A DNA stretch of 32,326 nt, from contig NZ_VCNK01000017.1 in assembly GCF_006265095.1 (NCBI RefSeq), forward strand, positions 1 through 32,326, written 5' to 3'. The stretch comes from Phaeobacter sp. B1627 (GTDB lineage Bacteria > Pseudomonadota > Alphaproteobacteria > Rhodobacterales > Rhodobacteraceae). This document shows, one piece after another, positions 281 through 31,424 of the stretch. The notes beneath the pieces are model-generated. The model was not told the DNA's origin, did no database searches, and saw only the letters and a program-made list of their open reading frames with translations. Each line of letters opens with the position of its first letter. Position 1 is the stretch's first letter. A program made the position numbers and the translations under genes.

Positions 281-448
281 ATGAGCGAACCGGCCCTGAC
301 CCTAAACGGCAGGGCGGGACGGACTGTCTTTGCCTGTCTTCATGGAATGGTGCCTCAGCCGGGCCAGCTTCTCGCAGCCCCTGTGTGCAACACCTTGCGT
401 CCGGTTGGCGGGCGGAGGCCGATACCCCATGAGGAAAATTTGAAATGA
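281..448 (+). CDS. Possible 55-residue leader protein coupled to the IS66 transposase
   Basis: An ATG at 281 opens a frame of 55 codons ending in a TGA that overlaps the tnpC start as ATGA (445-448). A purine-rich GGGAGTGG lies just upstream (270-277), about the right distance for a ribosome binding site. The protein begins MSEPALTLNG, is rich in Arg, Gly and Pro, and matches no family I recognise; it does not resemble IS66 TnpA or TnpB. The 4-base overlap suggests translational coupling to the transposase, but chance is possible for so short a frame in G+C-rich DNA. Confidence 0.35.
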   Translation: MSEPALTLNGRAGRTVFACLHGMVPQPGQLLAAPVCNTLRPVGGRRPIPHEENLK

Positions 449-2115: not shown

Positions 2116-2122
2116 CAGGCTA

Positions 2123-2148
2123 TCACCGCCCCGCAAACGGGGCGGTGA
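2123..2148 (+). terminator. Hairpin terminator after tnpC
   Basis: Perfect 11-base-pair stem (TCACCGCCCCG / CGGGGCGGTGA) with a 4-base loop, eight bases after the tnpC stop and followed by CCATTTTT. Its position just inside the proposed element end is typical of IS66 elements. Confidence 0.75.
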
Positions 2149-2334
2149 CCATTTTTACACGGCCGGTACCTCATGTGAGGTTCCGGCCCAAAGCCGTGTC
2201 TGGACGGCTTCCCGGTGATACTTGCAAGTCTTCATAGCCCTAATCCGTTTAGCACTGCGCCCCCTTGTTCGGGCTCAGGCAGAAACTGGAACGAGTTCAG
2301 CGGCAAGCTCCAGTACAAGACCGCTCACCGCCTC

Positions 2335-2898
2335 CTAGGCTTGGTCCTGCGATGTCTTCCCGCGCAACTTGCGGGCCAGCGCGGACCCGCGGGCGGAGGC
2401 TTCCTGTGCCAGCAGCAGAAGGGCGATTTCCCGCATCTGATGCATGGCCAGATCGGCTTCGTCCTGCCCTAGCAGCATTGCAAGCTCAGCCGGTGCCGTG
2501 CAGTCGGCCAGTAGGCGCTTCAGCGCAGGTCCATTCTTTGATGCCTCGGCCCGGGCAATACAGATGTCGGTCATACCCGCCATCTCGGAGTGAAAAACCT
2601 CAACCGGCATGCTTGCTGTCTGCCTGGAATAACCGGCCTGCCGCTCGACATGGAGCTCCCGCTGCGCCGGGTCATAGGACATCATTAGCCCATCAAGCGA
2701 CACGTCCGATGCAATGGGATTTCCGAAGCGCTTGCGCAGGCTGAGCGCTTCGGCAAAGAGCACCAGCTGCAAAAGGCCGGCCTGCGGCAGATCGCAGGAA
2801 ATACGCTGGATGCCGCTGCGGCCGGCGTGCTTGTACTTGAGCGCGAGCCGGGCACCGCCGTCCTCCCGCGCCTCCTTCGAAAATATCTTTGCAGCCAT
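2335..2898 (-). CDS. Hypothetical protein, 187 residues
   Basis: I do not recognise a family. The protein starts MAAKIFSKEAREDGG, is charged and soluble-looking, and has no signal peptide or membrane segment. The middle (about 45-110) is mixed alpha/beta; the C-terminal third is helical and rich in Ala, Leu and Arg. An overlapping plus-strand frame exists at 2265-2744. I prefer the minus frame because it has a near-ideal promoter placed right at its ATG. There is no Shine-Dalgarno sequence, and the -10 hexamer ends seven bases before the start codon, so a leaderless message is likely. It stands alone between IS66 debris and mscS. Confidence 0.6.
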   Translation of the reverse strand: MAAKIFSKEAREDGGARLALKYKHAGRSGIQRISCDLPQAGLLQLVLFAEALSLRKRFGNPIASDVSLDGLMMSYDPAQRELHVERQAGYSRQTASMPVEVFHSEMAGMTDICIARAEASKNGPALKRLLADCTAPAELAMLLGQDEADLAMHQMREIALLLLAQEASARGSALARKLRGKTSQDQA

Positions 2899-2905
2899 GG
2901 CGCGG

Positions 2906-2933
2906 ATTATATGGAAAGCTGCCGGACCTTCAA
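2906..2933 (-). promoter_or_regulatory. Sigma-70-type promoter giving a probable leaderless transcript
   Basis: On the minus strand TTGAAG (2933-2928) and TATAAT (2911-2906) are separated by 16 bases. The -10 box is perfect and the -35 matches four of six positions. Transcription would start at about 2898, the A of the ATG for the 187-residue gene. Confidence 0.55.
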
Positions 2934-3294
2934 GCGGCGGCCGGAAGGTCCGGCGATGCTAGGCGGCCACGCGCCTAAGGTCAGGCAGCAGATGGAAGGC
3001 ACGTGTTTGCATGGGAGCACCCTTGGCCATTCCGGATTTTCCAGGCCACGCGGAAATGCGGTGTTCAGTGAAGGGGAATCGCGTGGTCCGTCTTTGATTG
3101 GAGCGATGGTCTTGTGAATGCGTGCTTGCAAGAAAATCTGCGGACCAGTCAATTTCCGGGGCCGATACACCGCTTACGCCGAAAAAGACCGAAACGGTTC
3201 AGGCGGCGGCCCCGCAAAGCGGCGTTTATGCCAAGGCGGGGGCGTCCCCCGCCTTGCGGCAGGGAACGGCCTTCGGGGGCTGAGGCAGCGCCGC
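2934..3294. other. Intergenic region with one strong hairpin
   Basis: No convincing gene is seen; several overlapping frames of 60-96 codons lack family resemblance and ribosome binding sites. The only clear structure is a perfect 11-base-pair stem with a 3-base loop at 3232-3256 (CAAGGCGGGGG-CGT-CCCCCGCCTTG). It lies 39 bases beyond the mscS stop on the minus strand, so it may end that transcript, although no T-run follows on either strand. Confidence 0.5.
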
Positions 3295-4101
3295 TCAGCC
3301 CTTTTTCTGGATTTCCACGCTATGGGGGTAGGGGATGGAAATACCCTCTGCATCAAAGGCTTCCTTGACGCCCTGGATCATCGCCCATTTCAGTTCCCAA
3401 TAGTCGTCGGCGTTGCACCACAGGCGGGTGGAGATATCGACGGAACTGTCGCCGAGGTTGGTGACACGCACCCAGGGGTCCGGATTGGCGAGCACGCGGG
3501 CGTCGGCCTCCGCCAGCCGCAGGATGACGGCCTTGGCCTGTTCGATATTGTCGCCGTAGTCGATGCCAAAGGTGATATCCAGGCGGCGGGTGGCATGGGC
3601 CGAGAAGTTGGTGATGATCGCGCCCCAGGCCTCGCCATTGGGGACGATCAGCTGCACGTTGTCGGGGGTGACCAGCTCGGTGAAAAACAGGTTCAGATCC
3701 CTGACCGTGCCGGCCGTGCCGCCGATGTCGACGTATTGACCCAGCTTGTAGGGGCGGAACAGGATCAGCATGAAACCGGCCGCCAGATTGCTGAGCGTGC
3801 CCTGCAGCGCCAGGCCGATGGCGAGGGTGGCAGCGCCCAGCATGGCGACAAGGCTGGTCGCCTCGATGCCAAAGATGCCGAGCACCGCGACCAGCACGAT
3901 CGCGAGCAGGACCCAGCGCACCACGCTGGCGGCAAAGCTGCCGAGGGTTTCGTCAATTTGCGGTGTCTTGTTGATCCGGGTGCGGACGGCGCTGGAAATC
4001 AGCCCGGCTGCCATCCACCCGAGGATCAACACCATCAATGCCTTGATACCATTCAGTACCAAGGGCCAGTATAAATAGGCCTGTTCAGTGAACTCTTCCA
4101 T
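3295..4101 (-). CDS. mscS: Small-conductance mechanosensitive channel, MscS family
   Basis: An inner-membrane channel that opens under membrane tension and releases solutes during hypo-osmotic shock. At 268 residues it is close to E. coli MscS (286). Three hydrophobic segments lie near 13-36, 58-82 and 88-110. The third is the Gly/Ala-rich pore helix (AMLGAATLAIGLALQG, about 86-101), followed by LSNLAAGFMLILFRPYKLGQYV, the start of the cytoplasmic beta domain with its typical FRPF/YxxGD-like signature. The C-terminal part forms the cytoplasmic cage. The ATG at 4101 is preceded by AAGGGACAAGACC on the minus strand, a good ribosome binding site. It lies 67 bases downstream of mscL on the same strand, so the two tension-gated channels are probably co-transcribed. 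Confidence 0.95.
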   Translation of the reverse strand: MEEFTEQAYLYWPLVLNGIKALMVLILGWMAAGLISSAVRTRINKTPQIDETLGSFAASVVRWVLLAIVLVAVLGIFGIEATSLVAMLGAATLAIGLALQGTLSNLAAGFMLILFRPYKLGQYVDIGGTAGTVRDLNLFFTELVTPDNVQLIVPNGEAWGAIITNFSAHATRRLDITFGIDYGDNIEQAKAVILRLAEADARVLANPDPWVRVTNLGDSSVDISTRLWCNADDYWELKWAMIQGVKEAFDAEGISIPYPHSVEIQKKG

Positions 4102-6672: not shown

Positions 6673-6719
6673 TGGTGTGACCTGACACCAAAGAATTACA
6701 TGTCACCGGTATGCGGTGA
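6673..6719. promoter_or_regulatory. Two inverted repeats upstream of the polyphosphate kinase gene
   Basis: TGGTGT-6 bases-ACACCA at 6673-6690 is followed by TCACCG-5 bases-CGGTGA at 6703-6719. Their centres are about 29 bases apart, and they end 32 bases before the ppk2 start. The rest of the 240-base gap shows no gene. These could be operator sites for an unknown regulator; the half-sites do not match a Pho box. Confidence 0.35.
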
Positions 6720-6751
6720 TCAAAACCTGTTACAGTCAAAGGAGAAACAGT

Positions 6752-7669
6752 GTGAGCAGCGATCAGGAAAATACATCCTTCGAATGGCTGGAAGCCGAGC
6801 TGCAGGACACGCTGGACGAGGATTTCGAAATCGAATTCGCCGAGCCCATGCTGTCTATGGAGCTGCGCAAGATCTACCGGGCCCAGCACCCCGAGATGCT
6901 GGATCGCGAGGTTTATTTCCGCAACCTGCTGCGCCTGCAGGCCGAACTGATCAAGGTCCAGGATTGGGTCCAGCACACAGGGGCCAAAGTCTGCATCCTG
7001 TTCGAGGGCCGCGACAGTGCCGGCAAGGGGGGCGTCATCAAACGCATCACCCAGCGGCTCAATCCGCGGGTGGCCCGGGTGGTCGCCCTGCCGGCGCCCA
7101 GTCGCCGAGAGCAGAGCCAATGGTATTTCCAGCGCTACGTGCCACATCTGCCGGCCGCCGGAGAAATTGTCCTGTTCGACCGCTCCTGGTACAATCGCGC
7201 CGGTGTCGAACGTGTGATGGGCTTCGCCACGGATGATCAGGTCGAACAGTTCTTCCAGGACGTTCCCGAATTCGAACGCATGCTGGCGCGGTCCGGCATC
7301 ATCTTGCTGAAATACTGGTTCTCGATCACCGACGAAGAACAGCAACTGCGCTTCCTGATGCGCATCCACGATCCGATGAAACAGTGGAAACTGTCGCCAA
7401 TGGATCTGGAATCGCGCATCCGCTGGGAACAATATACCAAGGCCAAGGAGGATATGTTCTTCCGCACGAACATCCCTGAGGCGCCGTGGTATATCGTCGA
7501 AGGCAATGACAAGAAACGCGAACGTCTGAACTGCATCGAGCACCTGCTGACGCGCATTCCCTACCATGATGTGCCCAGCGAAAAAGTCGCGTTGCCGGAC
7601 CGGGAATACAATCCCGATTATGAACGTCGGGTGCTGCCGGACGAGCTCTACGTGCCAAAGATCTACTGA
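6752..7669 (+). CDS. ppk2: Polyphosphate kinase 2 (PPK2 family)
   Basis: Transfers phosphate between polyphosphate and nucleoside diphosphates or monophosphates. The 305-residue protein is about the size of a single-domain class I PPK2. It has the Walker A motif FEGRDSAGKGG (84-94), the Walker B motif LFDRSWYNRAGVE (141-153) and the family's C-terminal blocks WKLSPMDL and SRIRWEQYTKAKE. The frame opens at 6716, but GTG at 6752 is preferred because AAAGGAGA (6738-6745) lies at ideal spacing; the upstream residues do not resemble the family. It stands alone. The paired inverted repeats upstream suggest regulation. Whether it makes NTPs or polyphosphate cannot be told from sequence by eye. Confidence 0.93.
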   Translation: MSSDQENTSFEWLEAELQDTLDEDFEIEFAEPMLSMELRKIYRAQHPEMLDREVYFRNLLRLQAELIKVQDWVQHTGAKVCILFEGRDSAGKGGVIKRITQRLNPRVARVVALPAPSRREQSQWYFQRYVPHLPAAGEIVLFDRSWYNRAGVERVMGFATDDQVEQFFQDVPEFERMLARSGIILLKYWFSITDEEQQLRFLMRIHDPMKQWKLSPMDLESRIRWEQYTKAKEDMFFRTNIPEAPWYIVEGNDKKRERLNCIEHLLTRIPYHDVPSEKVALPDREYNPDYERRVLPDELYVPKIY

Positions 7670-19416: not shown

Positions 19417-20148
19417 TTACGGAACGGAAATGAAGCGATGGGTTTTGCCGTCCAGCTGAACAGCGGTCAGCCGCCCTGTTGCATAGGCGCCGGTATCAAT
19501 GGAAATTCGCCCGTTGTGCACCTTGGGGTCGCTGACAATCGTATGGCCGTGCACCACCCATTGGCCGTCCTTGCGGGCGGTTCTGAGAAAATCCGGATGT
19601 CCCCATTGCAACACGCTGTCGGTTTGTTCATCCACCGGTTTGCGCGGATCCGCGCCGGCGTGGGCCACCAGAACATTGCCGGAGCGAAAGCTGGTCGGGA
19701 GATAGGACAGCCAGTTGATCATCAGCTCGCCCATCCGGTCGCTCAGGAAATCGCAGGCATTCACAAGGTCGGGCGTCTTCATATAGGCTGCAAGCCGCGG
19801 AACGCCGAAGGATGCAAGGGTCTGCAATCCCCCATGGTCCAGCCAATGGCGGCCGTTCTGGGCGGGATTGCGCAGGAACCGGAGCAGCATCTTTTCGTGA
19901 TTGCCCTGCAGGCATAAAATATCAGGGCGCTCAATCAAAAACCGAAGAACCCTGGCGCTGTCTTCGCCCCGGTCAACATAATCGCCGACGCAGATGATTT
20001 TATGATCCGCCGGAAGCCGATCCAGAATGCGGCGGAACAGATCATAGCGGCCATGGATATCGCCGATGACGCAAAGCGGTTCGTCTGGTGCGACCGGTGA
20101 AAATTTCTTTGTCAGGCCCAGTTTTTCTGTTGCCCAGGTAACTAGCAT
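19417..20148 (-). CDS. PP1/PP2A-like serine/threonine phosphatase or ApaH-related metallophosphatase
   Basis: A 243-residue calcineurin-like phosphoesterase using two metal ions. The diagnostic motifs are in order: GDIHGRYD (28-35), GDYVDRGEDS (54-63), QGNHEKM (80-86), VLVAHAG (about 158-164) and VVHGHT (about 197-202). This set is shared by bacterial PrpE/Pph-type protein phosphatases and by diadenosine-tetraphosphate hydrolases, which cannot be separated by eye. The length (about 240) favours the protein-phosphatase-like group. It is convergent with the penicillin-binding protein gene. The ATG at 20148 has a weak AAGGCG site upstream. Confidence 0.88.
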   Translation of the reverse strand: MLVTWATEKLGLTKKFSPVAPDEPLCVIGDIHGRYDLFRRILDRLPADHKIICVGDYVDRGEDSARVLRFLIERPDILCLQGNHEKMLLRFLRNPAQNGRHWLDHGGLQTLASFGVPRLAAYMKTPDLVNACDFLSDRMGELMINWLSYLPTSFRSGNVLVAHAGADPRKPVDEQTDSVLQWGHPDFLRTARKDGQWVVHGHTIVSDPKVHNGRISIDTGAYATGRLTAVQLDGKTHRFISVP

Positions 20149-21285: not shown

Positions 21286-22470
21286 TTAGCTGAGCGAAAT
21301 CAGGAGCGAGCAGACCGCATTGGGATCGTAGTGCTCTGGCTGCCCGTCTTTGGCGAGCGGCAGCCTGTGGCAGGTCACCGGGTGATCACGGGCGGCGCGC
21401 TCCAACTCCTTTGCGGGCACTTGCATGTCGCAGATCACATGGGTCAGCAGATCCGTGGTCTCCCCGCAGGAGCCCAGATCCCGGCGCAGCGGTTCCAGCA
21501 GGGCGGCGATCTGGTCGGACAGCCGCATGCCGTGACATTCAGGGTCCGTGCCGAGGCTGGGGATATAGACCTTGGGCACCGGACGCGCGGCGATGGTGCG
21601 GCCGACCCCGGCGGGCAGAAGGTTGGAGATGACGCTGGAAAAGAGACTGCCGGGAGGATAGCAGATCAGGTCGCTGGCCTGTATCAGCTTCTGGTTCCGC
21701 TTCGGCAGACGCACCGCCTCGGCCGGGAGCTCCCGGGTGCCGTCCGACAGGAAGAGGCGCGTGATCCGGGTGCCGAGCGGCGCGCTCTCCTTCCCGGTCA
21801 TCCCGCGCTGACCGATGACGCGCCGCCCGTCCTTCAGATCGGCCCCGATCTGGAGGTTCACATCTGCAATGGGGCGCACGGTGCCGCGCACATCGACCAT
21901 CTTTGACATCAGGAAAAGGACAGGCTCCAGACCGCGATCATTGTCGAGATACCCTCCGGCGAGGATCAGATTGCCAATGCTGGCGTTGCGGTACTCGAGA
22001 TCCGCAGGGGCGGCCGCCTGAAAGTGGCGCAGATAGCTGACAATCAACTGCCGCATCGGCTTTGACAGCGCCTTCAGCAAGGGGTGAGAGCCGTCAAACA
22101 GGCTCTGGACCTGCTGGCTGAGCTCCGTATCTGTCCCGGTCTTTGGCAAACGGTGGGAAAACAGCCGGTAGATGTCAGGCTGGCCCAGCTCGGTTTCATC
22201 CGCCAGGGCCATCAGCCGGGACCGCAGATCGCCCACCGCAGGCATGGCAAAGGCCTCCCGCAGGACCTGGCTGGAGCCGCCGCTGTCGAACGGGGTGATC
22301 AGGTGACAGGAATTGTGGGTATAGTGTTTCAGCCTGCGCGAAATCTCGTTCAGCGCGCTGCCGCCGGAAAAGAACAGCAACCGCGGCCCGAGGTTGGGGG
22401 CGGCGAGGGACCGGGCAAGGCGCAGGGTGTCGGGAACCGTGGCCTGGCGGTGGATCGCGATGTCGGACAT
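21286..22470 (-). CDS. CofD/YvcK-like protein of the GAK system
   Basis: A 394-residue member of the CofD/YvcK fold. These proteins bind nucleotide-sugar or cofactor precursors; CofD transfers phospholactate in F420 synthesis and YvcK binds UDP-GlcNAc. Conserved loops are visible: FFSGGSALN (33-41), TPFDSGGSSQVLREAF (59-74, the glycine-rich substrate loop), SIGNLILAGGY (164-174), GQRGMTG (220-226) and ASDLICYPPGSLFSSVISNLL (265-285). The C-terminal YDP (381-383) also matches YvcK. I recall a distinct family, CofD-related in GAK systems; the neighbours support this rather than F420 synthesis. It is divergent from the kinase-ligase operon, with 425 bases between. The ATG at 22470 lacks a strong ribosome binding site. 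Confidence 0.85.
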   Translation of the reverse strand: MSDIAIHRQATVPDTLRLARSLAAPNLGPRLLFFSGGSALNEISRRLKHYTHNSCHLITPFDSGGSSQVLREAFAMPAVGDLRSRLMALADETELGQPDIYRLFSHRLPKTGTDTELSQQVQSLFDGSHPLLKALSKPMRQLIVSYLRHFQAAAPADLEYRNASIGNLILAGGYLDNDRGLEPVLFLMSKMVDVRGTVRPIADVNLQIGADLKDGRRVIGQRGMTGKESAPLGTRITRLFLSDGTRELPAEAVRLPKRNQKLIQASDLICYPPGSLFSSVISNLLPAGVGRTIAARPVPKVYIPSLGTDPECHGMRLSDQIAALLEPLRRDLGSCGETTDLLTHVICDMQVPAKELERAARDHPVTCHRLPLAKDGQPEHYDPNAVCSLLISLS

Positions 22471-22895
22471 GATCACCCATCTGTGCAATTCGTGCGGACC
22501 ATGCCATTGACCGACTGGAAATGCCACCGGCTTGCCGCGATCTCCGTGTCATCCGAGGGTCCGGGGGTGACGCGCGGGAAGAGATCGGGCAAAGATCAGG
22601 CAGAGATCGGGCCGAGACCGAGCACTGAGGCCGCCCTCATGGGCAAGCCGCCACCAATCTGGCGTCAGCCACGCGGATCCTTCGGCGCGCTCTGCGGATC
22701 TGCGCCTTCTCGGGCATCATCTGCCCGGCTGTCATGGAGATGTCACATATGTAGCCCAGATGGGAAAACATCCGGATTCCAGACAGATCGGGCGCGGGTG
22801 GCCTGATAGCGGGGCGGGGGCTGCCCGATTTGACCCGCCCTGCGTCGCGCTGCTATCGGAGGGGACCGGCAGAAAGTACCAAGGGGTCGTGCAAT
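22471..22895. other. Divergent regulatory region of the GAK cluster
   Basis: These 425 bases separate the divergent CofD-like gene and the PhoU/kinase operon. No gene is convincing. The clearest signal is the Pho box at 22729-22746, oriented toward the plus-strand operon. A poorer half-site, GTGTCAT, lies at 22544-22550. No matching box faces the CofD-like gene. Confidence 0.5.
22729..22746 (+). promoter_or_regulatory. Near-consensus Pho box (PhoB binding site)
   Basis: CTGTCATGGAGATGTCAC consists of two 7-base half-sites in direct repeat, 11 bases apart. The first, CTGTCAT, matches the PhoB consensus fully; the second, ATGTCAC, matches six of seven; the 4-base linker is off-consensus. It lies 150 bases before the PhoU/kinase gene in the correct orientation. 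One near-match by chance is possible, but the downstream PhoU-like domain makes a functional site more likely. Confidence 0.6.
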
Positions 22896-24530
22896 ATGAA
22901 ACTGCCTGAAGCCGCGCAGGAAAACCTGGCGTTTCTGCTGGCAGAGCTGGACAGCCAGCTGGCCTCCATGCTGGCCTATTTCAAGGCGCCATCGACGGGG
23001 GCGGCGCAAAAGGTGATCCTGCGGGCTGGCTACGCCCATAACCTGTGGTCGCGGGTTCAGGCCTCCTGTCGGGCTGCGGGCGGGCGCGGAAAACCGTCGC
23101 AATCGCGGCGGCTGCAGTTGCAGAACGTGGACACGATTGCCCGCAACCTTGACCAGCTGTCGCGGCTGGCACGTCTGGCGCTGGTGCATGCGGAGGATGT
23201 GGAGCGGGTCAAACTGTTGCGCCCTGCCGCCTATGGAACGGTGCTGACACATGTGGCAACGGCGCTGCAGGAGGTGCTGCCGGCGCTGCATGCCTCCGAC
23301 AGCAGGCGCGCGATCGAGATCGGCCAGACCAAGGCGGGCCTCGATGCGTTCTACGACCGCATGTTCCGCACCTATACCCGGGATATGCGCGACACCCGCT
23401 ATACCGAGGATCTGGCCAATGCGCTGCTGGTTCTCAATGAGGTCCGGCGGATGGGAGAGAGCCTGCAGGGCATCAGCGAGGCGCTGTTGTCGATCAGCAT
23501 CGGCCAGAATGTGCAGTTCGAGCGCTATTTCACCCTGCGCAGCGTGCTGTCCGCCGGCAAGGTGCCGGGCGACGATATTGCCTTGAAACCACTGGCCGAA
23601 ACCCGCTCCGGCAGCGCCATTTCCTCGGTCACGGGCCGCGACAAGGACGGCGATCAGATCGATGCGGTGTTCAAGGACGGCGACAAACGCAAGGTCAAGG
23701 AAGAGCGCGCAGGGGTGAAGAGCTGGCATGCGATCTATCCGGGGCTGGCCCCGCGCATCCTGTCCTATGAAAAACGCGGCCAGTCGGCGGCGCTGCTGAT
23801 CGAGCACCTGCAGGGATATACCTTTGAACAGGCGCTTCTGGGCGAGGCGGACGCGACATTCGCGGCGGCGCAGAAGACCCTGCACAAGACCCTGAGCGAT
23901 ATATGGACCCGGACCCGGATCGAGACCCCGGCCGAGATGGCGGCGATGCGCCAGCTGTCCCGGCGGATGGGGGACGTCTACCGGGTGCATCCGGGGTTCA
24001 AGACCGGCGCATTGTGGATTCAGGGCCTGAAACAGCCGGGCTTTGACGAGCTGTTGCAGGCCGCCGAGACCCGCGAGGCGGCAGCTCCGGCCCCGTTCTC
24101 TGTCTATATCCACGGGGATTTCAACCTGGACAACGTGATCTACGACCCGGGCGAAAACAAGATCCGGTTCATCGATCTGCACCGGTCGCGCTATATGGAC
24201 TACGCGCAGGATGTCTCGGTGTTCATGGTGTCGAACTACCGGTTGCAGGTTCAGGACGGGCCGGTGCGGGCGCGGATTGCCGAGACGGCAGCCGGGCTGC
24301 ACCGGATGGCCACCCGCTTTGCCCGGGCGCAGAAAGACGACACATTCGAATTCCGGCTGGCGCTTGGTCTTGCGCGCAGCTTTGCCTCCTCGACCCGATT
24401 TGTCTTCGACAAGGAGCATGCCCGGCGCATGATCCTCAGGTCGCGGTATCTGCTGGACAGGGTGCTGGCGGTGCCCGAGGGCCGGGAGGGACGATTGAAA
24501 TTGCCGATCAAGGAGCTGTTTGGTGACTGA
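22896..24530 (+). CDS. PhoU-like domain fused to an aminoglycoside-phosphotransferase-type kinase (GAK operon)
   Basis: A 544-residue two-part protein. The N-terminal ~215 residues are entirely helical; the stretch RYTEDLANALLVLNEVRRMGESLQGISEALL (168-198) looks like a PhoU four-helix repeat. The C-terminal half resembles aminoglycoside and choline kinases. It has an N-lobe (about 225-305), HGDFNLDNVIY (406-416) with the catalytic Asp408 and Asn413, and IDLHRSRYMDYAQD (426-439) with the metal-binding Asp427. Such kinases phosphorylate small molecules or proteins; the substrate is unknown. It opens the plus-strand operon behind the Pho box. ATG 22896 follows CAAGGGG. The last eight bases overlap the ATP-grasp gene. 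A PhoU module on a kinase suggests a response to phosphate status (inference). Confidence 0.8.
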   Translation: MKLPEAAQENLAFLLAELDSQLASMLAYFKAPSTGAAQKVILRAGYAHNLWSRVQASCRAAGGRGKPSQSRRLQLQNVDTIARNLDQLSRLARLALVHAEDVERVKLLRPAAYGTVLTHVATALQEVLPALHASDSRRAIEIGQTKAGLDAFYDRMFRTYTRDMRDTRYTEDLANALLVLNEVRRMGESLQGISEALLSISIGQNVQFERYFTLRSVLSAGKVPGDDIALKPLAETRSGSAISSVTGRDKDGDQIDAVFKDGDKRKVKEERAGVKSWHAIYPGLAPRILSYEKRGQSAALLIEHLQGYTFEQALLGEADATFAAAQKTLHKTLSDIWTRTRIETPAEMAAMRQLSRRMGDVYRVHPGFKTGALWIQGLKQPGFDELLQAAETREAAAPAPFSVYIHGDFNLDNVIYDPGENKIRFIDLHRSRYMDYAQDVSVFMVSNYRLQVQDGPVRARIAETAAGLHRMATRFARAQKDDTFEFRLALGLARSFASSTRFVFDKEHARRMILRSRYLLDRVLAVPEGREGRLKLPIKELFGD

Positions 24531-25410
24531 ACTCAAAATCGGGGTGGTGGGCATTCCGGGCAAGTGGTCGACCGAGGCCATCGCCGACGCATTGGAGGCG
24601 CGCACGGGGTTTCGCCTTGTCATCGACATGGCGGAGGTCTCGCTCGATCTGGACAGCGGCGCATTGATGTTTCGCGGTCAGGATCTTTGCGGACTTGACG
24701 GGCTGGTGGTCAAGAAGATTTCCGAGATCTACAGCTATCATGCGCTGGACCGGCTGGAGATGCTGCGTGTGGCCGAGGCCCGCGGTGTCCGGATCTTCAG
24801 CAGGCCGGAGGCGATCCTGCGGCTGATGGACCGGCTTGCCTGCACGGTGACGCTGGCCAATGCGGGCATCCCGATGCCGCCGACCACCATCACCGAGAGC
24901 GAAGAGGCGGCGTTGGCTGCGGTCCGCAGCTACGGCAGCGCGGTGTTCAAACCGTTGTTTTCCACCAAGGCCCGCGGCATGTGCGTGATCTCCGCGACAG
25001 ATGCGGATGCGCCTGCGCAGATCGCGGCCTTCAGGGCCGAAAACCCGGTGATGTATGTGCAGGCCCGGCGCGAATTGTCGGGACAGGATCTCGGAATGGT
25101 GTTTCTGGGAGGGCGATACCTATGTACCTATGCCCGGGTGAAACAGGACGGACGCAGCTGGAACACGACAATCCTGTCGGGGGGCAAATACGAGCCCTTC
25201 GACGCGGATGCGGATCTGATCGATCTGGGCCGGCGCGCGCAGGCCCCGTTTGGCTTGACCTTCACAACGGTGGATATCGCGCTGACGGACAGCGGCCCCA
25301 TTGTCTTTGAGGTCTCTGCCTTCGGGGGGTATCGCGGAGTGAAGGAGGGCTGCGGGATGGATGCTGCCGGTCTGGTGGCGGAACACGTGATCGCAGGAAT
25401 GGATGAATGA
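24523..25410 (+). CDS. ATP-grasp ligase of the GAK system (RimK-like)
   Basis: A 295-residue ATP-grasp enzyme, matching the roughly 290-residue family I recall from GAK systems. Such enzymes make amide bonds through an acyl-phosphate. The N-terminal domain is KIGVVGIPGKWSTEAIADAL (5-24). SRPEAILRLMDRLACTVTLANAGIPMPPT (93-121) is the hallmark RimK-type helix and linker. The ATP loop is VFKPLFSTKARGM (141-153). The metal-binding end is VFEVSAFGGYRG (261-272), where the usual Asn of 'EVN' is replaced by Ser, an oddity that may mark the family. GTG 24523 is preferred because AAGGAG lies seven bases upstream. It overlaps the previous gene by eight bases and the next by four, indicating coupled translation. 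Confidence 0.85.
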   Translation: MTELKIGVVGIPGKWSTEAIADALEARTGFRLVIDMAEVSLDLDSGALMFRGQDLCGLDGLVVKKISEIYSYHALDRLEMLRVAEARGVRIFSRPEAILRLMDRLACTVTLANAGIPMPPTTITESEEAALAAVRSYGSAVFKPLFSTKARGMCVISATDADAPAQIAAFRAENPVMYVQARRELSGQDLGMVFLGGRYLCTYARVKQDGRSWNTTILSGGKYEPFDADADLIDLGRRAQAPFGLTFTTVDIALTDSGPIVFEVSAFGGYRGVKEGCGMDAAGLVAEHVIAGMDE

Positions 25411-26498
25411 CGCTATCTGATGTTGCGCAGGTCCGGGCGCTGCTGGATCTCAGCGCCGCCGAGGCGGCAGAGCCTCTGGACCTGAAAGTGGGCAGCGTGA
25501 CGCTCCGCGTTCTGTGCGGGGCGCCTGCCCTGCGCGATGAGCTGGCAGAGTATTTCAAGGAAGCCCGCGCCACGGTTGCGAGGGCCGACATCACCGTGCA
25601 TGTGACCGAGGGGCAGAGCATTGACCCTGCGCCGCTCTGGCGGCTTTGGGCGCGGGAGCCGGGCAAGCAGGGGCGCAAGGACGAGATCCATGACCTTGCG
25701 GACGGGCGGCTGATCCACAAGGCGCGCACCGGCGTCACCTTTCTGCAATCTCCGGCGCTGCTGGTGGCATTCGGGCCGGTCTCTGCGAATGCCAATCAGG
25801 TGGTGAATTTCATCAATACGCAGGTTCTGAACAGGGCACAGCGGGAGGGGTGGCAGATCTGCCATGCGGCGGCCGTGACCCGAGCCGGTCGGTCTCTCGC
25901 GATCGCGGGCTTGTCGGGCGGGGGCAAGTCGACCTCGGTCCTGCGGATGATGGACATTGCCGGGATGCAGTTCATGACCAACGACCGGCTGTTGTGTCAG
26001 GTCACGGCAACCGGCGCCGACGGGCTGGGCATTCCCAAACATCCGCGGATCAATCCGGGCACCATACTTGGAAATGACCGCCTGCAGGGGATGCTGAGCG
26101 AGGCGCGCAAGACCGAGTTGCGCAATATGGCCCCGGATGCGCTCTGGACGCTGGAAGAGAAACACGATCTGATCATTCCCGACATCTACGGGCCGGGCCG
26201 GATCACCTATGCGGCGCCTTTGACGGATTTCTGGGTGCTCAACTGGGAGCGCGACGTCGACAAGGTGACCATGATCGAGCAGGTCGATCTGGCAACGCGC
26301 CCCGACCTTTTGGGTGCGATCATGAAAAGTCCGGGACCTTTCTATCAGGCGGCGGACGGGGCGTTTCTGCGCGACAGTGCGGTGCCGGAGCCGGAGGGGT
26401 ATCTGGCGGCGCTCGCCCATGTCCGGGTGCAGGAGGTGACGGGCCGCGTGGATTTCGACTCGATTGCCAATCTTGGCCGCGATCTGTTTGATGCCTGA
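25407..26498 (+). CDS. HprK-related kinase (type B) of the GAK system
   Basis: A 363-residue P-loop protein related to HPr kinase/phosphorylase. The N-terminal ~145 residues form a separate domain. Then comes ICHAAAVTRAGRSLAIAGLSGGGKSTSVLRMM (151-182), which combines the HprK-type 'HAaav' strand with the Walker A motif GLSGGGKST (168-176). FMTNDRLLCQV (189-199) corresponds to the acidic metal-binding loop (N-D in place of the usual D-D). No HPr gene is nearby, so the substrate is probably another protein or a small molecule. The ATG at 25407 overlaps the preceding stop as ATGA, and the end overlaps the next gene by eight bases. Family call is firm; the subtype is from memory of the family names. 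Confidence 0.83.
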   Translation: MTLSDVAQVRALLDLSAAEAAEPLDLKVGSVTLRVLCGAPALRDELAEYFKEARATVARADITVHVTEGQSIDPAPLWRLWAREPGKQGRKDEIHDLADGRLIHKARTGVTFLQSPALLVAFGPVSANANQVVNFINTQVLNRAQREGWQICHAAAVTRAGRSLAIAGLSGGGKSTSVLRMMDIAGMQFMTNDRLLCQVTATGADGLGIPKHPRINPGTILGNDRLQGMLSEARKTELRNMAPDALWTLEEKHDLIIPDIYGPGRITYAAPLTDFWVLNWERDVDKVTMIEQVDLATRPDLLGAIMKSPGPFYQAADGAFLRDSAVPEPEGYLAALAHVRVQEVTGRVDFDSIANLGRDLFDA

Positions 26499-27210
26499 TC
26501 CTGATCCCGCGCCTGATCCCGCGCCGCGCTATGTCGCGCTGATCCGGCATGGCGCCTATCATCAGCGGGCGCAGACGCCATCGGCCCTGCAGCCCTTTCC
26601 CCTGACGCAGGAGGGGCAGGCGCAGGCGCAGGCATGCGGGGCGCAAGTGCATGCGATCCTTTCGCGGGAAAACTGGACCCTTGCGCCGGTGATCCACAGC
26701 TCGCACCAACTGCGCGCCTGGCAGACGGCGACAGCGGTCGCGGCGGTCCTGCGTGAGGCGGGCCACCGGGTCGCCCCCCTTGCCGAGACACCGGCGCTGG
26801 CAGAGCGCGCGGTGGGCGCGGTGGCCAATCTGACCACGACAGAGATCGAGGCGCTGCTTGATCTGGATCCGCGCTATGACCCAGCGCCGCCGGGGTGGAA
26901 ATCCGACAGTCACTACCGGCTGCCCTTTCAGGGGGCGGAATCGCTGTTGCAGGCGGGGGCGCGGGTGGCGGATCATCTGACAAGGGTCGCAGAGGCGGCC
27001 CCCGCGCGGTCGCTGACGCTCTGCGTCGGGCATGGGGCCTCGTTTCGTCATGCGGCCTGTGATCTGGGGCTGCTGTCATTGGGCGATATCGCGCGTCTTT
27101 CCATGCATCATGCCACCCCGTTACTGCTCTGTTACATGGGGCGTGGTAGATGGGCGCACTGTGGCGGCGCCTGGAAACACCGGCGCAGCCAGGAGACCCA
27201 CCTGGACTAG
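26491..27210 (+). CDS. Histidine phosphatase superfamily protein (GAK operon)
   Basis: A 239-residue phosphoglycerate-mutase-like phosphatase. ALIRHGAYHQ (16-25) holds the catalytic His20; SSHQLRAWQTA (70-80) carries the second arginine; CVGHGASFRHA (178-188) has the second catalytic His181. Its activity would remove a phosphate from a protein or small molecule, opposite to the upstream kinases. ATG 26491 overlaps the HprK-like gene by eight bases and precedes DPDPAPDPAP, an acidic Pro-rich leader. A paired kinase-phosphatase function within the system is inferred from the tight overlaps. The last ~30 residues are less family-like, and the next gene may begin inside them. Confidence 0.85.
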   Translation: MPDPDPAPDPAPRYVALIRHGAYHQRAQTPSALQPFPLTQEGQAQAQACGAQVHAILSRENWTLAPVIHSSHQLRAWQTATAVAAVLREAGHRVAPLAETPALAERAVGAVANLTTTEIEALLDLDPRYDPAPPGWKSDSHYRLPFQGAESLLQAGARVADHLTRVAEAAPARSLTLCVGHGASFRHAACDLGLLSLGDIARLSMHHATPLLLCYMGRGRWAHCGGAWKHRRSQETHLD

Positions 27211-28562
27211 GAACAGATGCTTTGCAGACCTGCCGTACGGCCCGCTCGCCTCTTTTGCCGCCTGTGTATGACCCCTTCGGCGAGCTCCCTGATTTGCCGC
27301 ATGAACTGGAGCGCTGGCCAGTGGCAAGCGCCCACTCCGGCAGCCCCGGCCCGGACGGCATCGATCAGCTCAAGGCCTGCCTGAGCCGCGCCGAGGCCCA
27401 TGGAGGCTGGCGCTGGCCGACCCGGCCCGTTGTCTTCCTTTCCGACACCCATGCCGATGCCGAAGGATTTCTGCGGTCGCTGGTGGTGTCCGGTCTGATC
27501 CGGCGCGATCGCGCCGCGCCGGGGGGATTTGTCCTGACGGCATTCGGCCGCAGCGCAACGATCCTGATCGGGGGGGATTGCCTCGACAAGGGACCGAGCA
27601 ACCTTGATATGCTGGATGCGCTGGGCGCGTTGATGGCGATGGGGCCGGACCTGCGCATTCTGGCGGGCAATCACGATCTGCGGCTGCGGCTGGCCATCGG
27701 CGCGCTGCAGGAGACGCCGACGGCGCTGAGCGAGCATCTGCTGGTGCGGATGGGCCGCAAGATCATCCCGTTGCTGCGGGAGGTTCACGACCGATACGTG
27801 AGCGCGGCCGACCTCGCGGCCCTGCCGTCCGAGGCCGAATGCCGGGCGCGTCTTCATCCGCGTGCAGGCTGGGCGGAGCGGTTCTCTGTCGCAGCGGTGC
27901 AGCATCTGAAGTCCGCCGCCGTGGCGCTCGAGATCGCCAAGCTGGAGCGGAAAGCCGCGCAGTTTGACGCGGAGGTTCTGCGGGCGGGGCTGAGTGCACG
28001 CGCGGTTCTGGCGGCGGCGCTGAAGTGCCGCGAGGTGTTCTTCATGCCCGGAGGCGACTATGCCTGGTTCTATGACGCGATGGACGTTGTCTGTCAGCTG
28101 GGCTCGCTGCTGTTCGTGCATGCCGGGGTGGATGACAGCATGTGTCGCCTGCTGGCGGAGGGGGGAGCCGCCACGGTGAACCGTCGCTACCGGTCCGGGC
28201 AGGGGCAGGATCCGTTCGCCTTCTACTTCGGCCCTCTGGCAAATCTGGTGCGCACGAAATACCGCACCTCGGACGCGCAGCTGACAAGGGCCGGCGTGGC
28301 GGATCTGCATTGTATGGGCGTCCATATGGTGGTGCAGGGACATGTGAACAATGCAAAGGGTCAGCGGCTGCTGGCCAAAAGGGGGCTGTTGCATCTGGAA
28401 GGTGACGTGACCCTGGACCGGAGCTCTCGTCAGGGGGAGGGGCTGTCAGGGATCGGTGCCGGGGCGACCTTGATCTTTCCCAGCGGGGATGTCATCGGAT
28501 TGAGCAGGGACTATCCGCGGGCCAAGCATTTCGCGCCGGAGCGGCAATTCAGGATCAGTTGA
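27150..28562 (+). CDS. Calcineurin-like metallophosphatase (GAK operon)
   Basis: A 470-residue two-metal phosphoesterase. Motifs run in order: FLSDTHADAEG (96-106), LIGGDCLDKGPSN (139-151), ILAGNHDLRLR (170-180), LFVHAGVDDSM near 324 and VVQGHVNNAKG near 399. The catalytic core is interrupted by a long helical insert (about 185-300), longer than usual. The start is uncertain. ATG 27150 lies inside the preceding gene (61-base overlap). TTG 27222, with TAGGAA upstream, and GTG 27264 (VYDPFGELPD) are alternatives, and the first ~30 residues look non-native. It ends one codon before the amphi-Trp frame. The substrate is unknown; with two kinases in the same operon it may be a phosphatase of the same target. 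Confidence 0.8.
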   Translation: MGALWRRLETPAQPGDPPGLGTDALQTCRTARSPLLPPVYDPFGELPDLPHELERWPVASAHSGSPGPDGIDQLKACLSRAEAHGGWRWPTRPVVFLSDTHADAEGFLRSLVVSGLIRRDRAAPGGFVLTAFGRSATILIGGDCLDKGPSNLDMLDALGALMAMGPDLRILAGNHDLRLRLAIGALQETPTALSEHLLVRMGRKIIPLLREVHDRYVSAADLAALPSEAECRARLHPRAGWAERFSVAAVQHLKSAAVALEIAKLERKAAQFDAEVLRAGLSARAVLAAALKCREVFFMPGGDYAWFYDAMDVVCQLGSLLFVHAGVDDSMCRLLAEGGAATVNRRYRSGQGQDPFAFYFGPLANLVRTKYRTSDAQLTRAGVADLHCMGVHMVVQGHVNNAKGQRLLAKRGLLHLEGDVTLDRSSRQGEGLSGIGAGATLIFPSGDVIGLSRDYPRAKHFAPERQFRIS

Positions 28563-28591
28563 GCCAGACGTTGAACATGAGGCGGGCGAAG

Positions 28592-28885
28592 ATGGCAAAG
28601 GACGACAAGGCACGCGATGATGCGCGGTTTCGCCATGACTCGCTGCAGGACCGCAAGACGGTGAAGACGCTCATCGACGCGATTGGCAAGGGGCTGGCGA
28701 AGGGCGAACTGAGCCTGAGCGATGACGACAACGAAATCCTGTTGACCCCCGAAGGATTGCTGACCCTGCGCATTCGGGCCGAGCGCAATGATGGTCAGTG
28801 CAAGGTGGATTTTCGTGTCAGCTGGACCGAGCGGGACGACGACCTTCGGGAAAGAGCGGCCCCGAAAGTCAAACCCCGAAGCTGA
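28592..28885 (+). CDS. Amphi-Trp domain-containing protein
   Basis: A 97-residue acidic protein without a signal peptide. The core, VKTLIDAIGKGLAKGELSLSDDDNEILLTPEGLLTLRIRAERNDGQCKVDFRVSW (about 25-79), shows the pattern of the amphi-Trp domain: a helix, a G-x-L turn, alternating beta strands and an invariant final Trp. Such small proteins are known beside GAK operons and in archaea. ATG 28592 (MAKDDKARDD) is preferred because GAGGCGGG is upstream; ATG 28577 is an alternative. It closes the operon, 29 bases after the metallophosphatase. Size and position would suit a small carrier or substrate protein for the ligase and kinases, but that is a guess. Confidence 0.75.
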   Translation: MAKDDKARDDARFRHDSLQDRKTVKTLIDAIGKGLAKGELSLSDDDNEILLTPEGLLTLRIRAERNDGQCKVDFRVSWTERDDDLRERAAPKVKPRS

Positions 28886-29553: not shown

Positions 29554-29994
29554 TCACATGTTGTACTGATTGAGATACAGGCGGACTGTTCTGTCCGTCC
29601 GGCGGATCGTCCTGGCGATTTCATTGACGGGCATCCCCTGCCAGTGGAGAAAGGCGGATATCCAAGCGTTTGCCAATGGCACACGACGTTGCAACAGATG
29701 CGCTACATTTGCCAGTGCCCGCACGTTGTCCGCTCCAACCAGTTTCTCGACCCTCGGCCGCCTTTTTGGATTTTGCGGGATAAACAGTTCGGAGCCACCG
29801 AACTGAAGAAGAAATTGGACCGTCAGTTCTGGCCCCAATACATCAAGATAGGGCTGCACCTGTGCGGTAGGCTTTGGAAGTGGAAGTGTAGGCCTGCTGA
29901 TCCTTAAAACGGTCTGTGGCAGCCCCCACTTGACGTCCGGCAAACTACGAAAAGGGGGCAGATCCACGCCAGACCACGAAGAGGTCAAGCGCAT
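29554..29994 (-). CDS. Mor-like transcription activator (Mu-type prophage), tentative
   Basis: A 146-residue frame. The core reads YLDVLGPELTVQFLLQFGGSELFIPQNPKRRPRVEKLVG (about 49-87), like the N-terminal domain of Mor/C activators, where a phrase similar to 'FGG..LYIP' is typical. It ends in a helix-turn-helix, MPVNEIARTIRRTDRTVRLYLNQ (about 121-143). Mor controls the middle-to-late switch in Mu-like phages. The first ~45 residues are not family-like and no ribosome binding site is seen, so the true start may be later or lost. Position among Mu-like remnants supports the call. Confidence 0.5.
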   Translation of the reverse strand: MRLTSSWSGVDLPPFRSLPDVKWGLPQTVLRISRPTLPLPKPTAQVQPYLDVLGPELTVQFLLQFGGSELFIPQNPKRRPRVEKLVGADNVRALANVAHLLQRRVPLANAWISAFLHWQGMPVNEIARTIRRTDRTVRLYLNQYNM

Positions 29995-30026
29995 GCGCAG
30001 ATTAGGGATGGGGGAGCCCGCGCACC

Positions 30027-30964
30027 TCAGTCACTGAGCGGGTCGGGTGACAATCCCGGTTGGGCGCAGATCGCAGCCGCTTCGTGTGAACTGGATGTGG
30101 ATTGCCCAATGCCGTTGTCGGGATCGCTGGGCAACGACGTTGAGTTGATCAGATGGGCGTATGCTCCCGGTATCGAATTGGAAACGAAGGTATCAAATGC
30201 CGCCTCGTCTTTCTGGCAGAGTGCAGCGGCCCATTCTTTCATTCGGGGCAGGATGATGCCGTTCGCGACCGCGTCCGAGACCTTGCTTGCAATTCGGCTT
30301 TCCGCTTGGGTCGAAGGCTGTTGGTTTCGATCCTGCATCAATTCCTGAATGGCCTCGATGGGAACGAAGCGCGCGGGATCATGAGACTGGGCGGCAGTTT
30401 CTGCGCGGGCCTCCCCTTTGAGCGTCGCAATTGCCTCAAAACCCGCTTGGGGTTCAGCTTCGGCTGGCAGGTCCAGAGCTTGGGCCAGTTGCTGCATGAA
30501 ATTTTGACTGTCGGGCATGGCGGTGTCCTGGCTTGCAAGGGCATGAAGTTGAAGTTTGGGATTGTGAACCAGCCCAGCACCTTTGAGCTTGGTGATGGCT
30601 TTGTTGCCCGGCCCGAAGAAGAAGGAGGGGCTGAGGTAGCGGTAAGCCTCGGTCGCAATCAGTTCGCGCGCCTGAGCGGTCCATTCCACGCGCACCCAGA
30701 GGCCTGCTGCGTCCGCTTTCAGTTCCTTGATCCAGAGGTGGCGGGAACCGGGCTGACATGCCCATCAGGCTTGCGGTCATTCTGGTGTTCGTAGTCAATC
30801 GGCAGATCGACGCCGGACTGATGGAATGCCAGTCTGACCGATTGCGGATCGGACAGGGCGAACCGTCGCCCATCCCAACCAGCCATGTGCCCAGGCGGAA
30901 ACAAATGGACCCAATCCGGAGCCTTACAGGATAGCTCACATGTTGCGCTTGCTTCGTTCAGCAT
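30027..30964 (-). pseudogene. Mu-like phage protease/scaffold protein I, frameshifted
   Basis: The N-terminal part (30964-30719) reads WVHLFPPGHMAGWDGRRF and DLPIDYEHQNDRKPDGH, the signature of phage Mu protein I (gp32), which matures the capsid and whose C-terminal part is the scaffold. At 30735-30741 one base is missing. In the next frame the sequence continues WIKELKADAAGLWVRVEWTAQARELI without gap and runs to the stop at 30027, ending in the typical C-terminal ICAQPGLSPDPL. Restoring one base gives 312 codons, close to normal. The gene lies four bases after the T remnant in the direction of transcription. Confidence 0.85.
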
Positions 30965-30968
30965 CAGT

Positions 30969-31424
30969 TCACTCGCCGATAAACGGCGAGACCATCAACT
31001 TCGCGGTGCCTTTCCACTGGTTGGTTTCACCACCTGAGCCAAGCTCCGAGTTCAGCAGCTTGAGAGCATCGCTCTCAAGAGAGGGCGGTACGACCAATGT
31101 GGTCGGCTGGATGCCCAATATCCGGCCACCATCCGCCCGGAAGTTCATCATCGCGGAACGCGCAGCGGCATAAATTTCCGAGGTCAGAGCGCCCTTGCTG
31201 CCATAGCCGAGTTGCCAAAGGCCAAAGCCCGCGTTGACCCGTGCCCGAACGCGGTAGATGTATTCGTCGTTCATGAACACATGGGGGGTTTGCCGGATCA
31301 CTCATCGCAGTGAACTGGTAGTCCTCGCGCTCCTGCCAGATAGCGGTTTCACGGCGCGGGAAGTATCCAGCAGGAACCACGGGGTTTCTGCGCCGTCCTG
31401 CACGTTGCTGACGGTGACTTCCTT
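30969..31424 (-). pseudogene. Mu-like major head protein T, 5'-truncated and frameshifted
   Basis: The C-terminal half is open from GTG 31301: HVFMNDEYIYRVRARVNAGFG and GFGLWQLGYGSKGALTSEIYAAARSAMMNFRADGGRILG, followed by PTTLVVPP, are characteristic of Mu gpT, the major capsid subunit. Upstream sequence on the same strand continues the family in other frames (NVQDGAETPWFLLDTSRAVKPL, then WQEREDYQFTAMSDPAN). This needs one missing base near 31338-31346 and one extra C in a six-C run at 31283-31288. The start is cut off at about 31424, where IS3 sequence begins. Confidence 0.85.

Follow-up and report, generated by a model that had tools for sequence, protein, structure and literature searches.

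The GAK System and the Locus Under Study

The closest described counterpart of the locus treated here is the GAK system of NCBIfam, represented by curated models (TIGR04354–TIGR04357, each applied with its own cut-off, as were those of Pfam), three of which are entered as "hypothetical equivalogs" or without a function. Our subject is a seven-gene cassette at positions 21286 to 28885 of a 32,326-nucleotide stretch of Phaeobacter sp. B1627 (contig NZ_VCNK01000017.1; the whole stretch is called the window), which belongs to a genome of 4.35 Mb. An earlier reading of the letters of this DNA (the sequence-only reading) had placed here genes for a CofD/YvcK-like protein, a PhoU-like/APH-kinase fusion, a RimK-like ATP-grasp ligase, an HprK-related kinase, a histidine phosphatase, a calcineurin-like phosphatase and an amphi-Trp protein, and had given some of these the NCBIfam name GAK, as one without a function. 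NCBIfam, Pfam and profile searches back all seven genes at that place, and the name holds: four of the seven window proteins exceed the cut-offs of the four GAK models (Table 1), and the neighborhood equals that on two annotated plasmids, where the PhoU–APH kinase, a NUDIX hydrolase and both phosphatases bear generic names and a SixA–NUDIX fusion is absent from the names seen. The GAK assignment is sound and already has a name.

GAK is most likely, at a probability of roughly 0.4, a modification system linked to phosphate or polyphosphate. New here, and absent from the sequence-only reading, are a complete PhoU domain as part of the fused kinase, NUDIX and SixA–NUDIX accessory members (the former decayed in the window), and a link to a CHAD–ParA(–CYTH) module. 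Through the co-occurrence with CHAD–ParA, the SixA/NUDIX genes common to both and the PhoU domain, the GAK label becomes a testable claim on phosphate storage in marine bacteria; if it is true, bacterial polyphosphate biology gains a system of writers and erasers and, possibly, a ParA factor for positioning.

CHAD is described as a specific polyphosphate-binding domain by Lorenzo-Orts and colleagues (PMC6537752), whose introduction counts Ddp1-type Nudix enzymes, PPN2 and TTM3 among the polyphosphatases. According to a study on Acidithiobacillus, folD, ppk, parA and CHAD form a highly conserved group (PMC10892726), and the relevant part of a 2025 review on organelle positioning names AlgP for polyphosphate granules (PMC13052382). 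The open-licence literature of PubMed Central (PMC), a scope outside which most subscription literature lies, contains none of the terms "GAK system," "amphi-Trp," and "HprK-related kinase"; the single paper there with "CofD-like protein" is listed as an Enterococcus urine proteome.

Conservation of the Cassette

Conservation was assessed in a phylum sample of 299 Pseudomonadota genomes and in 91 loci (the best 80 of 380 ligase relatives from a scan of named genomes, plus 11 further loci), the window being excluded. Among the 299 genomes, the grasp_GAK ligase (TIGR04356) and the HprK-related kinase HprK-B (TIGR04355) each exceed the cut-off in 12, and the two lists are identical (about 1e-21 under random draws, a figure not corrected for phylogeny). 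The amphi-Trp protein does so in 16, including 11 of the 12 ligase-bearing genomes; in the twelfth (G138), the contig stops after the metallophosphatase gene and before the place of amphi-Trp. The order PhoU–APH kinase, ligase, HprK-B, histidine phosphatase, metallophosphatase and amphi-Trp is found in 79 of the 91 loci. The genes are thus conserved together, as a GAK assignment would lead one to expect and contrary to the outcome that the sequence-only reading had said would refute it.

The ligase and HprK-B are present in all 91 loci and the PhoU–APH kinase in 90, the sole miss being a locus that begins at the ligase (L130). Amphi-Trp is found in 88; two loci stop before it (L137, L182), and L184 has it immediately beyond the stretch that was fetched. 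These four proteins form the steady core, kept wherever the contig allows. The hydrolases (histidine phosphatase, PPP-type metallophosphatase, NUDIX and SixA–NUDIX) are dispensable; both they and CofD are subject to loss or relocation. The metallophosphatase is present in 86 loci, two of which hold fragments (L097, L099), and the histidine phosphatase in 83; neither phosphatase was seen in L070, L073, L079 and L095, and L097 and L099 have the metallophosphatase fragment only.

The PhoU–APH and HprK-Related Kinases

The N-terminal portion of the APH-type kinase is, by profile and model comparisons, a complete two-repeat PhoU domain. It matches the PhoU structure 4q25 in profile searches (E 4.7e-11), and an AlphaFold 2 (AF2) model of the fusion, with a predicted local distance difference test (pLDDT) score of 86.5, superposes on 4q25 with a target-normalized template modeling (TM) score of 0.84–0.85 and a root-mean-square deviation of 2.3–2.5 over about 208 columns; the same model matches APH(3′)-Ia (E 9e-9). 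The GAK protein shares the whole two-repeat fold with PhoU proteins and differs from them in its fusion to a kinase. The GDH within RIGDHARNIAE of 4q25, which we take to be the PhoU metal-binding motif, aligns with GEA in the GAK domain. APH-type kinases carry HGDxxxxN plus a downstream Asp. The kinase part conforms to this pattern, as its motifs HGDFNxDN and IDLHR are invariant in 28 relatives, and His406, Gly407, Asp408, Asn413, and Asp427 are invariant in 28 sequences.

HprK-B aligns with the HPr-kinase-domain protein of the same genome (PF07475, 66.9 bits) with an hhalign probability of 96.5 (E 9.1e-10), whereas no Pfam family was matched by the window protein itself. As in HPr kinase/phosphorylase, a His before the P-loop, the GxSGxGKS loop and an Asp-Arg after it are present: SGGGKST is invariant or nearly so in 26 relatives, and His153, Lys174, Asp193, and the Arg are kept in 83 of 83 sequences, in agreement with the P-loop pattern of HPr kinases. 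The first Asp of the ADDR motif is replaced, giving xNDR (Asn in 81 of 83, Gly in two), and because of this replacement the protein is classed as HprK-related rather than as HPr kinase. A further difference is a longer N-terminal part with invariant Arg and Lys residues and no Pfam match. Characterized HprK relatives can use ATP or pyrophosphate. The claim of the sequence-only reading that motifs are intact thus stands for these kinases and likewise for the phosphatases described below, the catalytic motifs being invariant or almost so in aligned relatives.

Association with CHAD–ParA and Phosphate Handling

GAK recurs together with a CHAD–ParA(–CYTH) module. A CHAD protein is encoded in the flanks of 9 of the 91 cassettes (L080, L092, L101, L103, L121, L141, L143, L182, L184), with a ParA-type ATPase beside it in all except L092. 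Two cassette-linked CHAD proteins that were scanned match the domain at E 1e-60 and 7e-47 and contain no fused CYTH domain; a separate CYTH protein is encoded near the cassettes of L103 and L121, and a small fourth protein in some of the CHAD-bearing flanks. With the subfamily defined as a match at E 1e-60 or better to a model built from the cassette-linked CHAD genes, 20 of 49 GAK genomes (from 50 of the 80 loci) carry it, or 13 of 42 once the seven genomes that supplied the model are set aside. In the phylum sample, it occurs in four genomes: 2 of 12 with GAK versus 2 of 287 without (p 0.008). In the family of the window, where membership of GAK genomes was assigned by record title, 16 of 34 GAK genomes carry it as against 18 of 199 genomes sampled at one per genus irrespective of GAK (p 5e-7); without four model-supplying genomes, the figures are 12 of 30 versus 17 of 198 (p 3.6e-5). 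Five of the baseline positives repeat GAK genomes, which lowers the excess.

The CHAD–ParA pair is present in 36 of 38 CHAD loci (five of which repeat the same genome); of the two loci without it, one is explained by a contig end. Where the pair lies away from GAK, homologs of the GAK SixA–NUDIX protein (SixA or NUDIX) adjoin it in L241, L242, L243, L253, L257 (the same as L270), L271, and L273. The pair is shared with CHAD phosins and with the group described in Acidithiobacillus (PMC10892726), from which the present loci differ in that CHAD–ParA goes with GAK, CYTH or SixA/NUDIX genes.

Three observations concern individual loci of this set. L242 and L243 are Paracoccus plasmids with CHAD–ParA–CYTH and a NUDIX gene, and the stretch read contains no GAK gene. 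In L209 (G116), an AAA_21 ATPase and an RloB-like protein, which might be a defense pair, lie at 2105–3796 (+) between the metallophosphatase gene and CHAD–ParA. Enemella evansiae is an actinobacterium. The L101 record bears this name, yet its genome was sampled within the window's family (G353 and G368 have CHAD at identical coordinates), and the label is probably wrong.

A Na/Pi symporter is encoded in the flanks of 6 of the 91 cassettes and adjoins the cassette in three (L034, L141, L143); that of L141, the one scanned, carries a PhoU domain. The gene company thus suggests phosphate or polyphosphate handling, and GAK is placed in phosphate/polyphosphate homeostasis because of the association with CHAD–ParA and because CHAD binds polyphosphate. 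In such a system, the PhoU domain would sense the phosphate state of the cell and gate the fused kinase; the two kinases, with HprK-B as the second writer, and the ligase would attach phosphate and a glutamate-like amino-acid group to a common target, probably a protein or a phosphorylated compound of the phosphate or polyphosphate store; amphi-Trp would act as an adaptor that docks the enzymes or the target via its conserved C-terminal tail; and the phosphatases and NUDIX enzymes would strip phosphate or cleave pyrophosphate bonds. A bolder version, which we consider rather unlikely, makes GAK and CHAD–ParA–CYTH two halves of one unrecognized polyphosphate-store system in marine Proteobacteria, in which CHAD would bind the polymer, ParA would space the polymer over the nucleoid in the way that carboxysomes are positioned, and a new reversible mark, added by the kinases and ligase of GAK together with amphi-Trp, would couple the store to the phosphate supply.

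Several results weigh against a phosphate or polyphosphate role. No CHAD protein is encoded in the flanks of 82 of the 91 cassettes, the subfamily is missing from 29 of the 49 GAK genomes, and in the window's own genome it was not found at E 1e-60, the only match being a generic CHAD one of 62 bits. When CHAD proteins of every type are counted, there is no clear enrichment (6 of 12 GAK genomes versus 84 of 287). The tests above treat kin as independent, with phylogeny corrected only roughly: four positives are Tritonibacter/Epibacterium and two are Chachezhania. The six Na/Pi loci amount to roughly three lineages; the symporter gene of three endosymbionts that are close kin lies about 9 kb away. 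No phosphate theme emerged among the 25 listed of 131 families of flanking proteins, with 116 proteins scanned. Pho-box matches precede the operon in 14 of 90 cases, compared with 31 of 963 other genes, but the stretch before the metallophosphatase gene scores 16 of 86, so that the signal is unspecific; there it probably stems from coding sequence. No polyphosphate model explains what the ligase would do, and no homolog of the PPK2-type kinase of the window is encoded in the flanks of other cassettes. That gene (PF03976, 350 bits) lies at 6716–7669 (+) of the window, about 14 kb from the cassette.

The Phosphatases and the Amphi-Trp Protein

In the histidine phosphatase, the RHG motif, Glu114, and His190 are invariant in 20 relatives. 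PPP phosphatases bind their metals through DxH, GDxxD, GNHD, a further His, and GH. In the metallophosphatase, this pattern is found in full: DxH, GGDxxDKG, GNHD, and GH show little or no variation across 30 relatives, with Asp99, His101, Asp143, Asn174, His175, His324, and His398 invariant and Asp146 nearly so. A profile search of the PDB places ApaH nearest, as a weak match (E 0.0028).

The AF2 model of amphi-Trp has a core at residues 21–90 (block pLDDT 88–96) of one helix and four strands, for which a search for a solved relative found none. In GAK amphi-Trp proteins, Phe24 is kept in 84 of 84 sequences, His26 and Ser28 in 82 each, and a tail of the type [PL]x[VI] in 82 and 83 of 84. Five amphi-Trp proteins from genomes without GAK have neither His26 nor Ser28 nor the tail, and Phe24 is kept in one. 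These features fit a docking role.

They also bear on whether amphi-Trp is itself what the cassette modifies. The sequence-only reading had proposed that the ligase and the CofD-like protein build or attach a group, and that two kinases act and two phosphatases reverse their action, perhaps on this protein. A modification cycle on amphi-Trp by the two kinases and the ligase, with no special link to polyphosphate, accords with its core membership (88 of 91 loci) and with near-invariant residues that mark off the GAK type, but we regard it as unlikely. L062 has lost both candidate acceptors (H26Y, S28A) and L063 one (S28A), and both kinase genes and the ligase gene are present in both loci; the histidine phosphatase is missing from L062 as well. 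It is therefore doubtful that His26 or Ser28 serves as an obligatory phosphate acceptor. No further Ser, Thr, or His is invariant among 78 amphi-Trp sequences, and in the tails examined there is no conserved C-terminal Glu suited to a RimK-type reaction. The earlier interpretation accordingly stands for the identity and conservation of GAK, whereas its proposal of amphi-Trp as the modified substrate, at least as an obligatory one, is weakly supported.

The ATP-Grasp Ligase and CofD

The GAK ligase has ATP-grasp homology to RimK/MptN alpha-L-glutamate ligases along its whole length. Its nearest PDB entry is 7qyr, "probable alpha-L-glutamate ligase" (E 3.4e-16), and the tetrahydromethanopterin:glutamate ligase MptN is the second-best family (120 bits, cut-off 350); besides grasp_GAK, every NCBIfam family listed is matched below its cut-off. 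The metal ligands of ATP-grasp sites are Asp, Glu, and Asn. Where solved ligases have EVN, 85 of 85 GAK ligases have EVS: Asp252 and Glu264 are kept and the Asn is replaced by Ser266. Because of this replacement the protein is not classed as RimK. The closest relative of the window ligase is from Tritonibacter horizontis (87% identity). In L165, a second GAK-type ligase gene (E 1e-96) lies at 357–1268 (−) next to a CofD gene and away from the main cassette.

The CofD domain of the CofD-like protein is clear (PF01933, 128 bits), and YvcK (TIGR01826) was rejected as its family at 109.4 bits, below the cut-off of 196. A CofD gene is present in 50 of the 91 loci, divergent and upstream in 49 of them. 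CofD_GAK exceeds its cut-off in 6 of the 299 phylum genomes, five of which are among the 12 with the ligase; in the other seven, CofD is below the GAK cut-off or missing. In G006, which has no GAK ligase above the cut-off, a CofD_GAK gene adjoins a Na/Pi symporter gene (L033, 9925–13695).

A pathway for a small-molecule cofactor, akin to F420 or methanopterin tailoring, would give CofD-like transfer, glutamate ligation and phosphate adjustment by kinases and phosphatases a common purpose, and it draws on the MptN resemblance, on the clear CofD domain and on CofD genes elsewhere in 24 of the 30 genomes examined among those that lack one within 10 kb of the cassette. It is nevertheless improbable, since CofD is not indispensable (six of those 30 genomes are unmatched, and less than half of the ligase genomes pass the GAK cut-off for it) and since the Asn of EVN is Ser throughout the GAK ligases. 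An F420-type pathway as the core of the system, named in the sequence-only reading as what would refute it, is unlikely, with CofD above its GAK cut-off in five of the 12 ligase genomes.

NUDIX and SixA–NUDIX Members

A NUDIX gene is present in 60 of the 91 loci, followed directly by the PhoU–APH gene in 58, and in close relatives of the window it heads the operon. The window retains a remnant of about the last two fifths, which matches residues 100–174 of the 174-residue protein of L064 with 56% identity (tblastn); the Nudix box is gone, and the frame is broken upstream by a stop. The cassette of the window, which had been called complete-looking, is therefore complete for the core and not for the ancestral set. 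A SixA–NUDIX fusion is present in 37 of the 91 loci, in 21 of them between HprK-B and the histidine phosphatase. It was not found in the window's own genome, which encodes separate NUDIX and SixA homologs only.

The fusion of L123, the one searched, has a NUDIX half that matches Ap4A hydrolase (E 1.2e-7) and diphosphoinositol polyphosphate phosphohydrolases (DIPP; from 6.7e-7) in the PDB, and a SixA half nearest to SixA. Eukaryotic PPIP5K combines an ATP-grasp domain with a histidine phosphatase. By analogy with PPIP5K and DIPP, the ATP-grasp enzyme and the kinases might make a pyrophosphorylated messenger similar to inositol pyrophosphates, to be destroyed by DIPP-like NUDIX, SixA and histidine phosphatases; the set of phosphatases and the PhoU domain would suit such signaling as well. 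We consider this doubtful, and as improbable as a cofactor pathway: the GAK enzyme is nearest to carboxylate-amine ligases, with no ATP-grasp kinase among the PDB matches listed, and NUDIX and SixA–NUDIX are both missing in 19 of the 91 loci.

Gene Arrangement and Surroundings

The features of the locus are collected in Table 1. The six plus-strand genes overlap or almost abut, and the CofD gene is divergent from them.

Table 1. Features of the GAK locus in the window, with the evidence for each.
Feature	Position	Strand	Evidence
CofD-like (YvcK-like) protein, CofD_rel_GAK	21286..22470	−	TIGR04357 467.8 bits (cut-off 340)
NUDIX hydrolase gene remnant, not a working gene	22682..22906	+	tblastn of relatives' NUDIX
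PhoU domain fused to APH-type kinase	22896..24530	+	profile, AF2 model, motifs
RimK/MptN-like ATP-grasp enzyme, grasp_GAK	24520..25410	+	TIGR04356 437.4 bits (cut-off 300)
HprK-related kinase B (HprK_rel_B)	25407..26498	+	TIGR04355 319.7 bits (cut-off 200)
Histidine phosphatase, branch 1	26464..27210	+	PF00300 75 bits; motifs
Calcineurin/PPP-like metallophosphatase, long insert	27150..28562	+	metal motifs; ApaH nearest
Amphi-Trp protein	28559..28885	+	TIGR04354 59.4 bits (cut-off 31)

Pfam cut-offs are exceeded for CofD, APH, RimK, and His_Phos_1, and PhoU (20.7, cut-off 23.5), Metallophos (19.1, cut-off 21.5), and Amphi-Trp (26.7, cut-off 27) fall slightly below theirs. Some starts probably differ from the ends of the open reading frames: the CofD-like gene probably starts at 22470 within a frame that extends to 22527, the metallophosphatase gene downstream of 27150, and the amphi-Trp gene at 28592, its conserved portion beginning with Phe24 (28628).

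A mobile defense or stress cassette, for which the patchy spread (12 of 299 genomes) and GAK relatives in five of 72,556 plasmid records might speak, is highly improbable, given that PADLOC matches none of the seven window proteins, neither the SixA–NUDIX fusion nor CHAD, and ParA with a single weak hit, that no relative was confirmed in viral contigs, and that a penicillin-binding protein gene is the common chromosomal neighbor in the window and in L064–L067.

Elsewhere in the window, a second calcineurin/PPP-type phosphatase is encoded at 19417–20148 (−; PF00149, 56.9 bits) and lies outside every gene cluster common to at least five loci. An IS66 transposase gene (PF03050) lies at 445–2115 (+), and Mu-like phage genes (late activator, head protease and gpT head protein) occupy 29554–31301 (−), soon after the cassette toward the contig end.

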